Assembly (NCBI GenBank): GCA_023379125.1
Contig: JAMCSY010000027.1
Location: 69,249 to 116,463, forward strand
DNA: 47,215 bases
DNA from: Patescibacteria group bacterium
GTDB taxonomy: Bacteria > Patescibacteriota > Microgenomatia > Daviesbacterales > UBA10151
Reading direction: 5' to 3'
Shown: piece by piece, positions 7,339-38,422 of the stretch
Numbering within the stretch: the stretch's first letter is position 1
How the letters are laid out: each line of letters starts with the position of its first letter
Program-made: the position numbers and the translations under genes
The notes under the pieces: generated by a model
The model's input: only the letters and a program-made list of their open reading frames with translations
Told to the model about the DNA's origin: nothing
Databases searched by the model: none

Positions 7339-7367
7339 TTGACATTTTAGCTAGTACAGACTAAACT
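7339..7367 (+). promoter_or_regulatory. Promoter TTGACA-17-TAAACT upstream of the hairpin-repeat leader
   Basis: TTGACA 7339-7344 and TAAACT 7362-7367, 17 bp apart. The start would be near 7374, so the mRNA leader for the 7512 gene would contain all four tandem ATGAG repeat units. Confidence 0.6.
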
Positions 7368-7385
7368 CAGCTGGCAGAGAAAACT

Positions 7386-7511
7386 ATGAGCCGCATGGGC
7401 GTCTCTGATTAGGAAATTATGAGCCGTACTGACGTCTCTAACTTTGTTATGAGTCACTAACGTGCCTCTAACTTTGTTATGAGCCGCATGGGCGTCTCTG
7501 ATTAGGAAATT
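7386..7511 (+). repeat. Four tandem 30-33 bp ATGAG hairpin/micro-ORF units
   Basis: Units start at 7386, 7419, 7449 and 7479 and are 33, 30, 30 and 33 bp long; units 1 and 4 are identical. Each begins ATGAG and contains GAG-N-xyz-loop-zyx-N-CTC. The inner stems are CGC/GCG, CGT/ACG, CAC/GTG and CGC/GCG, so the pairs change together. Units 1 and 4 encode MSRMGVSD and stop at a TAG that overlaps an AGGA ribosome-binding site for the next ATG. The last linker plus ATGAGCCG forms the start of the following gene. Confidence 0.75.
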
Positions 7512-8225
7512 ATGAGCCGAGAAGCAGGAATCGAAGAATACCACATACTCAGCACTTCCCCCGGTGATTTCTTGAGAGCGATTAATCTTCCTCTCCCACG
7601 ACAAGTAGCTTTTTTTAACTTCCGGGCTAAAGACACTGGTGAACCACCCAATAATGTTCAGTATGATGATGTCTATGCTACTCGAGCTTATGAGCGGGGC
7701 TTTTTACCATATACCATGGATGTGATTGGTTATGTTGAATCTACACTTGCTCCGAATCGCTCATATGTCAATGTGTCCAGACTACCTCTTCTACCCAGAA
7801 AGAGAATTAATCGCACCGTGGCTGTTGCTGTGGCTAAAGCAATCATGCGAGGCGAAGGCCGGGCTCAGAGAGTAAAAGCCTATATCCCAAGTTTGTGCAT
7901 TAATGAATTCTGTGAAGATTTTTGGGGATATCTAATAGAGTCCTACGAACTACAAGAAGCTGTAATTGTGCCTGCTATGCTCAAAGGAGCCACAGCTGAG
8001 CCTTTAAAATTCACAGTCAAACTAAATACTAGAACTCAAGAATATACTGCCCCAGCCATACTTTTTATGGGTAATGGTTACAGCACTACCGGTTCTGAAT
8101 CACTTTCTGCAACACAGGCACCACAAGAACTTCACTCTGGTTTAACTTTAAAAATGACTACTGAGTTTGCCCACAGCTTAGCTGGAGCTACTTTACGCGA
8201 TCGATTTGACAGCTTAGCTTACTAG
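7512..8225 (+). CDS. Hypothetical protein (237 aa) behind a tandem-repeat leader
   Basis: No family recognised. It is soluble, with no signal or membrane segment. Notable parts are an acidic/aromatic segment 'GEPPNNVQYDDVYATRAYER', a basic 'LLPRKRINRTVAVAVAKAI' segment and 'YIPSLCINEFCEDFWGYL', which has two cysteines and several aromatics. The start is set by a good Shine-Dalgarno (AGGA, 6 nt before ATG), shared with secE. The start codon coincides with the start of a fifth repeat unit, so the first codons (MSRE) may derive from the repeat. It may be an enzyme, but I see no catalytic signature. It converges on the ASCH gene. Confidence 0.65.
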   Translation: MSREAGIEEYHILSTSPGDFLRAINLPLPRQVAFFNFRAKDTGEPPNNVQYDDVYATRAYERGFLPYTMDVIGYVESTLAPNRSYVNVSRLPLLPRKRINRTVAVAVAKAIMRGEGRAQRVKAYIPSLCINEFCEDFWGYLIESYELQEAVIVPAMLKGATAEPLKFTVKLNTRTQEYTAPAILFMGNGYSTTGSESLSATQAPQELHSGLTLKMTTEFAHSLAGATLRDRFDSLAY

Positions 8226-8741: not shown

Positions 8742-8804
8742 ATGAGTCATTACATGTCTCTAATTAGCATTATGAATCGCTAGCACGCTTCTAATTAGGA
8801 AATT
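8742..8804 (+). repeat. Two ATGAG-family hairpin units in the secE leader
   Basis: Units at 8742-8771 (30 bp) and 8772-8804 (33 bp), with the same lengths and design as those at 7386-7511. The first has CAT/ATG as its inner stem. The second ends with the same ATTAGGAAATT linker and ribosome-binding site, immediately before the secE ATG. The first unit opens a 13-codon micro-ORF that stops inside the second unit. Confidence 0.7.
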
Positions 8805-8990
8805 ATGAAAGCTATACTTGATTTTTTAAGTGAAGTTAAGGTAGAATTAGCCAAAGTTGTATGGCCATCGCGCGATACAACAATTAAGCTTACGGTAATT
8901 GTAATTTTAGTAACTGTTACTGTAGGCTTTTTTATTGGAGGTGTCGACTACTTATTAACGCAGATTCTATCTGCAGTTATCAATAAGTAG
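8805..8990 (+). CDS. secE: Preprotein translocase subunit SecE
   Basis: The small subunit of the SecYEG translocon in the cytoplasmic membrane. 61 residues is typical for the single-span form. The amphipathic helix 'FLSEVKVELAKVVWPSRD' carries the family signature (KVxWPSR), followed by one membrane segment at 27-48 and a second hydrophobic tail. Its place directly before nusG, rplK and rplA matches the classic bacterial cluster. The start is set by AGGA 6 nt upstream. A second, diverged copy of its last 19 codons lies 28 bp after its stop. Confidence 0.95.
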   Translation: MKAILDFLSEVKVELAKVVWPSRDTTIKLTVIVILVTVTVGFFIGGVDYLLTQILSAVINK

Positions 8991-9018
8991 ATACCAACAA
9001 GAAGCGAACGAAGTGAGA

Positions 9019-9078
9019 TTCATTGGAGGTGTTGATTACTTGCTAACACAAGTATTAAGCTTTGTAATCACAAAGTAA
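9019..9078 (+). pseudogene. Diverged second copy of the secE 3' end
   Basis: The frame reads FIGGVDYLLTQVLSFVITK and a stop, against FIGGVDYLLTQILSAVINK at the true secE C-terminus (8931-8990): 16 of 19 residues match. At the DNA level only about two thirds of bases match, and many differences are silent. There is no start codon or upstream secE sequence, so this is a displaced or remnant tail, not a gene. Confidence 0.75.
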
Positions 9079-27449: not shown

Positions 27450-27512
27450 ATGAGTCTTATTTGATAAGCCTCTAACTTTGTCATGAGACTTACTTGATAA
27501 ATCTCTAAATAA
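27450..27512. repeat. Two ATGAG-family hairpin units next to ndk
   Basis: Units at 27450-27482 (33 bp; stem GAG-T-CTTAT...ATAAG-C-CTC, 5-bp inner stem) and 27483-27512 (stem GAGA...TCTC with TTA/TAA inside). The second overlaps the ndk stop codon. Same period and design as 7386-7511. Preceded by CTCTGATTATT, the linker of a lost unit. Confidence 0.65.
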
Positions 27513-31632: not shown

Positions 31633-31662
31633 ATCATACAAGATCTACTTTCTGCTGTCCAA
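31633..31662 (-). promoter_or_regulatory. Promoter TTGGAC-18-TATGAT for the methyltransferase-like gene
   Basis: Minus strand: TTGGAC (31657-31662), TATGAT (31633-31638), 8 nt to ATG 31624. It lies inside the 3' end of comEC. Confidence 0.55.
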
Positions 31663-32643
31663 ACTCTTTTGCTTGATACCTAGCAACCAAGCTAGCAAGA
31701 CAAGATAATAACCAACCCAAACTAGGACAGTAGTTTGACCAACCTCAACACTTCCCCCAGGAATTTGAGCAAAAAGACTCACCACATCCACAAAATAAGT
31801 TAATAAAACTGCTGGAGCCAGTCCTAGTATTAAACCTAAAACAGGAGAGATTAAGCTTCCCAACAAACTGATAAAGCCTAAAATCATAATAGGAGTAATT
31901 GTCCATAACACCAAAACATTAACCACTATACCTATGAGAGAAACTCTACCAAAATAAAAAGCAATAATTGGTAGTGTTAAAAGTTGAGCTGACAAACTAA
32001 CACCAAGATCCTCTTTGATCACCTTTGGTACCCTATGTAATAATTTAATCATTTGAGGAGAGACTAATACTACTCCAATGGTAGCTGCAAAAGATAGCTG
32101 AAAAGAGATACTAAAAAGATAATTAGGATTATATACTAGCATCAGACCAGCAGATAAAAGCAACCCCCACCAACCTAAGACAGTCTTGCCTAACAGCTGC
32201 CCTAGATAAGTAAACCCAGCCATAATTGCTGCTCGGACAATTGGAGGCTGAAAACCAGTTAAAAAAGTATAGAATATTAGTACTGTCATTGTTAAAACAA
32301 GTGTTTTTTTGCGTCCAAACAAATAAGAAAGGTTGACCAGAAAACCTGCTAAAATACTCAAATTTTGCCCAGAAACTACAATAATATGAATTGTGGAAGT
32401 ATTTTTAAGATCTTGTTTGAGATCATAGTTCAGTTTTTCTGTCGAACCTACCAGCATGCCAGCCATTAAAGCATTTTGAGGCTCAGGCCAGATTTGATAA
32501 CAACGTTGGGCTAAAAATTGCTGGACTGAAGCTAAAATCAGATGTTCAGGTTCTTGATAGTTAGGATCAAGTCCAGTCTGGCTAATTCTCCAACCAAAGA
32601 GTATCAGCCATAAAATTAGAGTTATTACTAAAAACTTAAGCAT
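31645..32643 (-). CDS. comEC: ComEC/Rec2-family DNA-uptake channel, competence domain only
   Basis: 332 residues, multiple membrane segments. The competence-domain core is clear: 'LMAGMLVGSTEKLNYDLKQD', 'NTSTIHIIVVSGQNLSILAG' and 'GFQPPIVRAAIMAGFTYLGQ'. ComEC moves single-stranded DNA across the cytoplasmic membrane. Full-length ComEC is 700-800 residues, with an N-terminal OB-like domain and often a C-terminal beta-lactamase-like nuclease domain; most of the first and all of the latter are absent. Such short forms are known, so this is probably functional. It follows comEA after a 228-bp structured gap. Confidence 0.9.
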   Translation of the reverse strand: MLKFLVITLILWLILFGWRISQTGLDPNYQEPEHLILASVQQFLAQRCYQIWPEPQNALMAGMLVGSTEKLNYDLKQDLKNTSTIHIIVVSGQNLSILAGFLVNLSYLFGRKKTLVLTMTVLIFYTFLTGFQPPIVRAAIMAGFTYLGQLLGKTVLGWWGLLLSAGLMLVYNPNYLFSISFQLSFAATIGVVLVSPQMIKLLHRVPKVIKEDLGVSLSAQLLTLPIIAFYFGRVSLIGIVVNVLVLWTITPIMILGFISLLGSLISPVLGLILGLAPAVLLTYFVDVVSLFAQIPGGSVEVGQTTVLVWVGYYLVLLAWLLGIKQKSLDSRK

Positions 32644-32733
32644 CTAAGAAATCATCAACCTCTACCAATGAATGAACTTGATCATAGACATCTATTATTC
32701 TGACTTGGAACAAAGACCTTTAAAAAGCGAGGA

Positions 32734-32864
32734 AGCTGATATCAGGGGGATGTCGGAATTCTTTCCGAGGGCAAACTTTCCCCCGATCAATCAGCTGACG
32801 AGCTTTTAGGTCGACTTCGACTTCCGTCAGACAGTTTTGCCACGCTTTTGCTGTCAAAAGCGTG
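32734..32864. repeat. Three-hairpin structured interval between comEA and comEC
   Basis: A long stem AGCTGAT (32734-32740)/ATCAGCT (32790-32796) encloses GGGGGA/TCCCCC and CGGAA/TTCCG. Then CTGACG (32795-32800)/CGTCAG (32825-32830) encloses GTCGA/TCGAC, and CACGCTTTTG (32841-32850)/CAAAAGCGTG (32855-32864) is a perfect 10-bp hairpin with a CTGT loop. It is far more GC-rich than its surroundings. It could be an element remnant, a processing signal or an RNA. Confidence 0.5.
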
Positions 32865-32871
32865 AGTCTTT

Positions 32872-33474
32872 CTAGTACACACTGATTTTATCTTTAATCT
32901 TGTCAAACTCACTTTTACCCACTACTTTTTTAGTCACCAAGTCCTCAGTTTGTGAATAAGGCCGATTATCTACAATTTTCTGGGCAGTGACTGGTCCCAC
33001 TCCTGGTAAAGAGTCTAGGGTATCCAGAGAAGCAGAGTTGATATTAATTGTTCCTAAAGCAGTTGAGTCCACCGTTGCTCCAGCCACTGCTGGGCTAGAT
33101 TCTCCTGAGTTGGGTATATAGATTTTTAAACCATCTGTGACTTTCTGGGCTAAATTAAGTGTTTTGGCTACATAATTAGTATCTGCCTGAGTAGTTAATC
33201 CTCCAGCTTTTTGAATTGCATCCTCTACTCTGGCGCCACTAGTTAGTTGATAAACCCCTGGGTGTTTTACAGCCCCGGAGACATCAACCATAATTTGACT
33301 CATTTGAGGATTAGCTGTTGGTAAAACTATTGGTTGACTAGGATTACTCTGTAAAGTTTTAGGAATTAATCCTGAAGAAATTATGCCACTAACGAGTAAA
33401 ACCCCACCTACCGCGCTTAAAATGATCGGCAGTTTATAGTGACTAATGAACTGATCAAGTGGACTTTCTTCCAT
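32872..33474 (-). CDS. comEA: ComEA-like DNA-binding competence protein
   Basis: 200 residues. One membrane segment (about 14-34), an SLBB domain ('MVDVSGAVKHPGVYQLTSGA', about 61-115) and a C-terminal helix-hairpin-helix DNA-binding domain ('ININSASLDTLDSLPGVGPV', 'TAQKIVDNRPY'). It binds incoming DNA outside the membrane and hands it to ComEC. It is transcribed from a leaderless promoter and followed by comEC. Confidence 0.92.
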   Translation of the reverse strand: MEESPLDQFISHYKLPIILSAVGGVLLVSGIISSGLIPKTLQSNPSQPIVLPTANPQMSQIMVDVSGAVKHPGVYQLTSGARVEDAIQKAGGLTTQADTNYVAKTLNLAQKVTDGLKIYIPNSGESSPAVAGATVDSTALGTININSASLDTLDSLPGVGPVTAQKIVDNRPYSQTEDLVTKKVVGKSEFDKIKDKISVY

Positions 33475-38323: not shown

Positions 38324-38346
38324 TGGACTGAAACCCTTACTTCGTA

Positions 38347-38378
38347 ATGAGCCTTGAAGACTCGTCTCTTACTTCGTA
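38347..38378 (+). repeat. ATGAG-type unit between the first two ATPase genes
   Basis: One 32-bp unit starting ATGAGCC, with linker CTTACTTCGTA that also occurs just before it (38336-38346). It encodes a 10-codon micro-ORF, MSLEDSSLTS. Its stem is weaker than in the other copies. Confidence 0.45.
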
Positions 38379-38422
38379 ATGAACAATTGTCTTCAACTTT
38401 AAGATGTACTATGCTTTAATCA

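Follow-up and report, generated by a model that had tools for sequence, protein, structure and literature searches.

Genomic islands and phages use tRNA genes and gene ends as targets, and these gene ends are duplicated or restored. Among the short palindromes, the REPs (GTAG and CGTC types) are imperfect hairpins of 20-40 bp that are dispersed in intergenic regions and sometimes lie within genes, and no transposase is known for the CGTC REPs (PMC3733652). The Rickettsia palindromic elements (RPEs), of 105-150 bp, are noted for their in-frame insertion within genes, and their target duplication is given as unknown (PMC10969869, PMC2229807). The YPAL or RU-2 elements of Yersinia are 168 bp long, abundant and intergenic, with target duplications of 3-26 bp and targets with dyad symmetry (PMC2229807). 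TIGR arrays of the TIGR-Tas systems, reported from parasitic bacteria, mostly consist of 5-15 units beside a tas gene (PMC12045711).

Here, we analysed a stretch of 47,215 nt, referred to as the window, from contig JAMCSY010000027.1 (positions 69,249 to 116,463, forward strand; assembly GCA_023379125.1). Its source is a 0.97-Mb, 97%-complete genome of the Daviesbacteria family. A preliminary description had reported four units, each beginning with ATGAG, in the leader of the gene at 7512, and had read them as hairpins that are also ribosome-binding sites and micro-ORFs. We consider it probable (roughly 0.6) that each unit represents one copy of a very short palindromic insertion element, located mostly at gene ends, which would be mobile and spare its host genes. 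The four units are present as described, and the ATG of the gene lies 33 nt past that of unit 4.

7386 to 7406, plus strand: hairpin of unit 1, ATGAGCCGCATGGGCGTCTCT, with its core at 7388-7405 (repeat, pattern and covariance-model matches)
7407 to 7418, plus strand: spacer of unit 1, GATTAGGAAATT, a copy of the ribosome-binding site (RBS) before the ATG of 7512 (exact repeat of 7500-7511)
7419 to 7439, plus strand: hairpin of unit 2, ATGAGCCGTACTGACGTCTCT, followed by the spacer AACTTTGTT
7449 to 7469, plus strand: hairpin of unit 3, ATGAGTCACTAACGTGCCTCT, with TAACTTTGTTAT on either side (12-nt exact repeat)
7479 to 7499, plus strand: hairpin of unit 4, identical to that of unit 1
7500 to 7511, plus strand: RBS region of gene 7512, GATTAGGAAATT, whose other copy is at 7407-7418
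7512 to 8225, plus strand: orphan gene encoding 237 aa, downstream of the array

The ATGs of the units (7386, 7419, 7449 and 7479) and of the gene (7512) are spaced by 33, 30, 30 and 33 nt, and units 1 and 4 are identical across 42 nt of unit and spacer, an exact repeat. As had been noted, the micro-ORFs of these two units end with a TAG (7410-7412 and 7503-7505) that overlaps the following AGGA. The product of gene 7512 gave no match in Pfam or PHROGs, and no homologue was found among 37 other genomes of the family. The genes 4757 (minus strand) and 7512 (plus strand) encode unrelated proteins that both begin with MSREA, with ATGAGYCGWGAAGC directly after TAAT/TTAT; it may be that remnants of the hairpin persist in their start codons.

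Within the window, the pattern ATGARNC-N(3-22)-GNYTCT matched ten times, compared with 2.2 +/- 1.4 expected matches, and 0 of 100 shuffled sequences reached ten. The related units previously seen at 8742, 27450 and 38347 are all among these matches, together with a unit at 8772 and an additional reverse copy at 9000-9023.

8742 to 8761, plus strand: first unit upstream of secE (pattern and covariance-model match)
8772 to 8792, plus strand: second unit upstream of secE, ATGAATCGCTAGCACGCTTCT (pattern and covariance-model match)
8793 to 8804, plus strand: RBS region of secE, AATTAGGAAATT, which resembles the inter-unit spacer 8762-8771
8805 to 8990, plus strand: secE (PF00584, E 3e-17)
8934 to 8990, plus strand: copy 1 of the secE end, within the gene, IGGVDYLLTQILSAVINK and stop
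9000 to 9023, minus strand: reverse-oriented element 3' of secE, ATGAATCTCACTTCGTTCGCTTCT (pattern match)
9022 to 9078, plus strand: copy 2 of the secE end, outside the gene, IGGVDYLLTQVLSFVITK and stop
27450 to 27473, plus strand: element whose inner stem is longer, CTTAT/ATAAG, lying 3' of ndk, which is on the opposite strand
27483 to 27506, plus strand: second unit of the pair at 27450
38337 to 38380, plus strand: element between ATP-synthase genes, consisting of TTACTTCGTAAT, the hairpin at 38347-38369 and TTACTTCGTAAT again

Across the genome, copies were located with two covariance models (R1, R2) and patterns rather than by a full scan, which gave about 20 copies at 11 places in total. 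Copies lie upstream of 7512, secE, rpmE (two), a gene for an EamA transporter and yebC (two). Two more, in opposite orientations, precede a glycosyltransferase-like gene, and another two precede a small ORF at C27:37029. The other sites are after secE, after the gene at C4:164405, between the ATP-synthase genes and 3' of ndk. Unit lengths in multiples of three, proposed as a property of the repeat, hold for the 7512 array and not as a general rule, since the rpmE pair is 32 nt and the yebC pair 68 nt apart; the period is set by the length of the duplication and not by the reading frame. Across genomes, copies were found before genes, after genes, in tRNA genes and in frame within proteins, in both orientations.

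With a length of 17-24 nt, the core forms an imperfect hairpin, GARYC...GYYTC preceded by AAT, that contains a bulged T as well as a pyrimidine mismatch. On its 5' side AAT is fixed, with TAT occurring less often. Twenty-two copies follow the scheme s'-T-GAR-Y-(inner stem, loop, inner stem)-Y-YTC-s. At the third pair, 13 of them have G-C, eight A-T and one G-T, and none of the 22 leaves it unpaired. The hairpin cells were paired in 84% of cases, compared with 71% in shuffled alignments and at most 47% when the alignment was slid. The paired changes that had been noticed in the inner stems of the 7512 array (CGC/GCG, CGT/ACG, CAC/GTG) proved to be real: the 22 copies contain 43 two-sided changes versus 16.7 in shuffles, with inner and outer pairs changing together. 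These changes show that selection, or a mechanism, maintains the hairpins. Since the complement of the 5' flank follows directly after the core, each site has its own outer stem with a bulged T, and the arms are accordingly site-specific (GTAA/TTAC, GCAA/TTGC, GCCAA/TTGGC, ACATTCAAAA/TTTTGAATGT). When folded individually with their arms, most copies return to the common shape (mean z = -2.0 against mononucleotide shuffles).

In tandem dyads of 18 bp, about three helical turns apart, one might see an operator bound by a repressor, and the 30-33 bp spacing as well as the promoter-near position at several genes would suit it. However, the dyads are imperfect palindromes with the bulged T and the conserved pyrimidine mismatch, their half-sites change in sequence while the pairing is kept, and copies also occur within tRNA genes and coding frames. 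We regard an operator function as very unlikely.

The sequence that ends with AAT before the hairpin often recurs shortly 3' and ends at the same AAT. A typical site thus consists of a partial gene end terminating in AAT, the hairpin, the complement of the flank, a linker and again the gene end up to AAT, which continues into the rest of the intact gene. Of 58 elements whose third position pairs, 15 have an exact repeat, 8 nt or longer, that stops right at the AAT adjoining the core, compared with 0 of 20 matches lacking this pairing and 22 of 3204 control ATGA sites. An outer stem of at least 3 bp was found in 27 of the 58 elements versus 89 of the 3204 controls. The duplications are about 9 to 53 nt long and end at AAT. 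They comprise the ends of tRNA-Thr, tRNA-Pro and tRNA-Leu (17-18 nt), the start of yebC (37 nt, identical at 37/37 positions), the end of secE in four genera (53 nt and identical at 53/53 positions in genome G048), the end of uppS in genome G046, and, upstream of rpmE, secE and 7512, the RBS together with the ATG. A clear flanking duplication was absent at several copies (for example L204 and L205).

The duplicated RBS and ATG at start codons account for the 30-33-nt units at 7386-7511 and for their micro-ORFs. The RBS and ATG of each unit are a duplication of the start of the target gene, and the micro-ORFs follow from this copied RBS and ATG; a uORF function is not supported. Nor are the units specific to leaders, as the same hairpins occur after secE, in tRNA genes, in coding frames and in both orientations. 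We also considered a cis-regulatory RNA leader in which hairpins in the 5' UTR of genes related to the ribosome and to secretion bind a protein or control translation and the micro-ORFs feed reinitiation. Copies are located directly before 7512, secE, rpmE and yebC, a promoter-like site (TTGACA-17-TAAACT) precedes the 7512 array, and the hairpins covary, all of which would agree with such a leader. Yet copies are found 3' of secE and ndk as well as in tRNA ends and coding frames in both orientations, and the target genes have no function in common. Moreover, the leader of 7512 as a whole does not surpass shuffled sequence in its folding (z = -0.2); only the individual hairpins do so. The four promoter-like sites detected stand against 4.0 expected. 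A regulatory leader is therefore unlikely to be the explanation. Owing to the insertions in tRNA genes, 3' ends and coding frames and in both orientations, we do not treat leader or operator functions as primary.

Elements within coding frames were seen in the products of rpsG (L202) and dnaE (L203), both named by sequence reading, and at L227. All three read NES..., and rpsG and dnaE have the peptide NES..ASSA.Q in common. At L224 (G010), an efflux-pump-like protein has a C-terminus that runs into the element (…TYGKKR and stop), and its apparent former end lies outside the gene.

Seen in the direction of the element, the intact gene lies 3' of the hairpin at all sites with a recognisable gene end. 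A duplicated end that restores the gene resembles what is known from genomic islands, whose attachment classically occurs at tRNA genes and conserved gene ends. The hairpins might thus be end remnants of a larger integrative element of the tyrosine-recombinase type that targeted these ends and lost its interior. However, at all sites with a recognised duplication the hairpin is only about 0-60 bp from the second gene end, with no large insert between them, and many different targets are occupied in one genome. We consider such remnants quite unlikely. Hairpin, linker and gene end amount to about 30-110 bp in total, and, unlike integrative elements, this element carries neither integrase nor cargo. 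Casposon- or integron-like integration was weighed by analogy only and set aside.

Tandem duplications might also arise at local hairpins through replication slippage or through template switching. This would require no mobile element, and the core would then represent a convergent hairpin geometry. The site-specific complements adjoining the core do resemble products of fold-back synthesis, and identical tandem units exist at 7385-7519 and C27:36999-37050. Against this, a single core consensus recurs at unrelated sites and in different genera, with zero matches in controls, and slippage leaves gene-end copies with mainly synonymous differences unexplained. We therefore judge slippage as rather improbable and return to the insertion element.

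Such differing copies were found at several sites. The two secE ends in the window differ at 19 of 57 positions, with 3 non-synonymous codons versus 11.4 expected. The secE end copies of genome G014 differ at 16/54 positions (3 versus 9.6), a third secE copy in G048 at 15/54 (2 versus 9.7), and the uppS end copies of G046 at 12/42 (4 versus 7.9). This strong synonymous bias, in secE of three genera and in uppS, indicates that both copies were coding sequence until recently, and divergence of the coding type is not expected from simple duplication. Judging from these sequences, the gene end delivered by some insertions probably came from a different but related lineage. Both comEC and comEA are encoded in the window (31645-33474, minus strand). 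Natural uptake of DNA is thus plausible and may be linked to the element.

In relatives without the element, the next gene comes directly after secE. Tandem arrays are also present at secE in G001 and G048, and such arrays are compatible with recurrent insertion at a single site. The secE end of G001 (L200) has a 13-nt exact inverted copy of the insertion site, TCAACTCCTCCAA, after the stop codon and adjoining the element, which suggests fold-back copying from the copy within the gene. In another genome (L160, G054), a repeat unrelated in sequence to the element, GCAAAGCTTGCGATCCTTCGGATCTAAA, occurs four times in tandem directly after the secE stop codon.

The mobile element that we propose would produce, in a single insertion event, a hairpin together with a duplicated or replaced gene end. 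The host gene would stay functional, the second gene end leaving an intact copy, and the regenerated AAT site could be used again, giving rise to tandem arrays. The least certain steps concern the insertion itself. A single-stranded hairpin may become joined at AAT to the 3' end of a DNA strand, and its own folded 3' end may then copy the flank, a fold-back step deduced from the anatomy of the sites. Subsequently, the strand would continue on another copy of the gene end, which would sometimes stem from a different lineage. More specifically, and with clearly more reservation, the element could be a DNA hairpin, about 20 nt in length and lacking a gene of its own, that propagates itself. It would enter conserved gene ends at AAT in single-stranded form, with its outer arm pairing with the target, and would spare the gene by having the gene end re-copied or imported, at times out of another lineage. 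As the copy number is low, the activity of the element can only be called putative.

Related copies were detected in nine other genera. Among 373 genomes of the class, only three contain the canonical core ATGARTCGCTNNCGCGCYTCT, the reversed control pattern having 0 matches; the two besides the present genome are Candidatus Daviesbacteria. With a looser pattern, a second subtype that differs in structure, GAGCCTTCG...ACTCGTCTC, was seen in seven of the family's other genera. The presence of the element in independent assemblies, including JACOXD01 and LCBT01, makes an artefact of one assembly unlikely. Matches of the canonical core beyond Daviesbacteria in a GTDB-wide search were mostly chance-like, and covariance-model matches in murJ-like genes of G010 and G045 (L062, L064) have the appearance of coding coincidence. 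In bacterium ADurb.Bin236 and a USCA MAG (L095, L098, L100), the same 21-nt core is located inside a larger hairpin, CGTCGGGA...TCCCGACG, that is repeated in the genome and carries a CGTC end; it is possible that this hairpin is a distant relative or a coincidence. No exact match was found among the IMG/VR viral contigs, and no strain pair with and without the same insertion was seen.

The preliminary description knew of no matching repeat family, and we likewise found none in Rfam, where the window and 20 loci gave only tRNA matches at gathering scores, or in the searched literature, which reached few subscription journals and no preprints. The element is apparently undescribed and works most like the REP, RPE and YPAL palindromes. 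As with REPs, it is a short, imperfect, dispersed hairpin, but with only about 20 copies at 11 places, far fewer than REPs. Unlike REPs, it shows gene-end duplication, the bulged T and the pyrimidine mismatch, and its arrays are head-to-tail, whereas those of REPs are head-to-head. An unpaired terminal GTAG or CGTC tag is absent from the copy alignment, in which the ends are ATGAR and YTCT; CGTC occurs only inside the right arm of some copies. The REP-associated Y1 transposase (PF01797) had no match in this genome, while control genomes did match. With neither terminal tag nor Y1 transposase in this genome, the element is not a REP by the criteria tested.

With RPEs, whose spread likewise has no known mechanism, the element has in common that a small palindrome lies in frame inside conserved proteins (PMC10969869, PMC2229807). 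Unlike RPEs, its core measures 17-24 nt and its unit in the window 30-33 nt, and it is mostly found at gene ends, which are duplicated. It resembles YPAL in the variable length of its target duplications and in having targets with dyad symmetry, but restores gene ends, which the cited text does not describe for YPAL (PMC2229807). TIGR arrays also have tandem units of similar length with stem-loops (PMC12045711). The arrays found here consist of 1-4 variably spaced units, and the neighbours examined include secE, rpmE and yebC. On the basis of the literature description, an identity with TIGR-Tas was set aside, since the copies are dispersed, often single and accompanied by target duplications. 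In contrast to MITEs in general, the duplication length is not fixed (about 9-53 nt) and no parent transposon was seen. We place the element among the palindromic insertion elements; whether gene-end replacement deserves a separate category depends on the mechanism.

If our reading is right, the element is among the smallest insertion elements known and has an unusual, host-sparing mode, with insertion at conserved gene ends and retention of an intact end. Its hosts belong to the CPR/Patescibacteria, in which mobile DNA has been little studied. The synonymous divergence of the duplicated ends provides a means of tracing gene exchange among these uncultured bacteria, and the finding bears on the spread of RPE- and REP-like palindromes for which no transposase is known.
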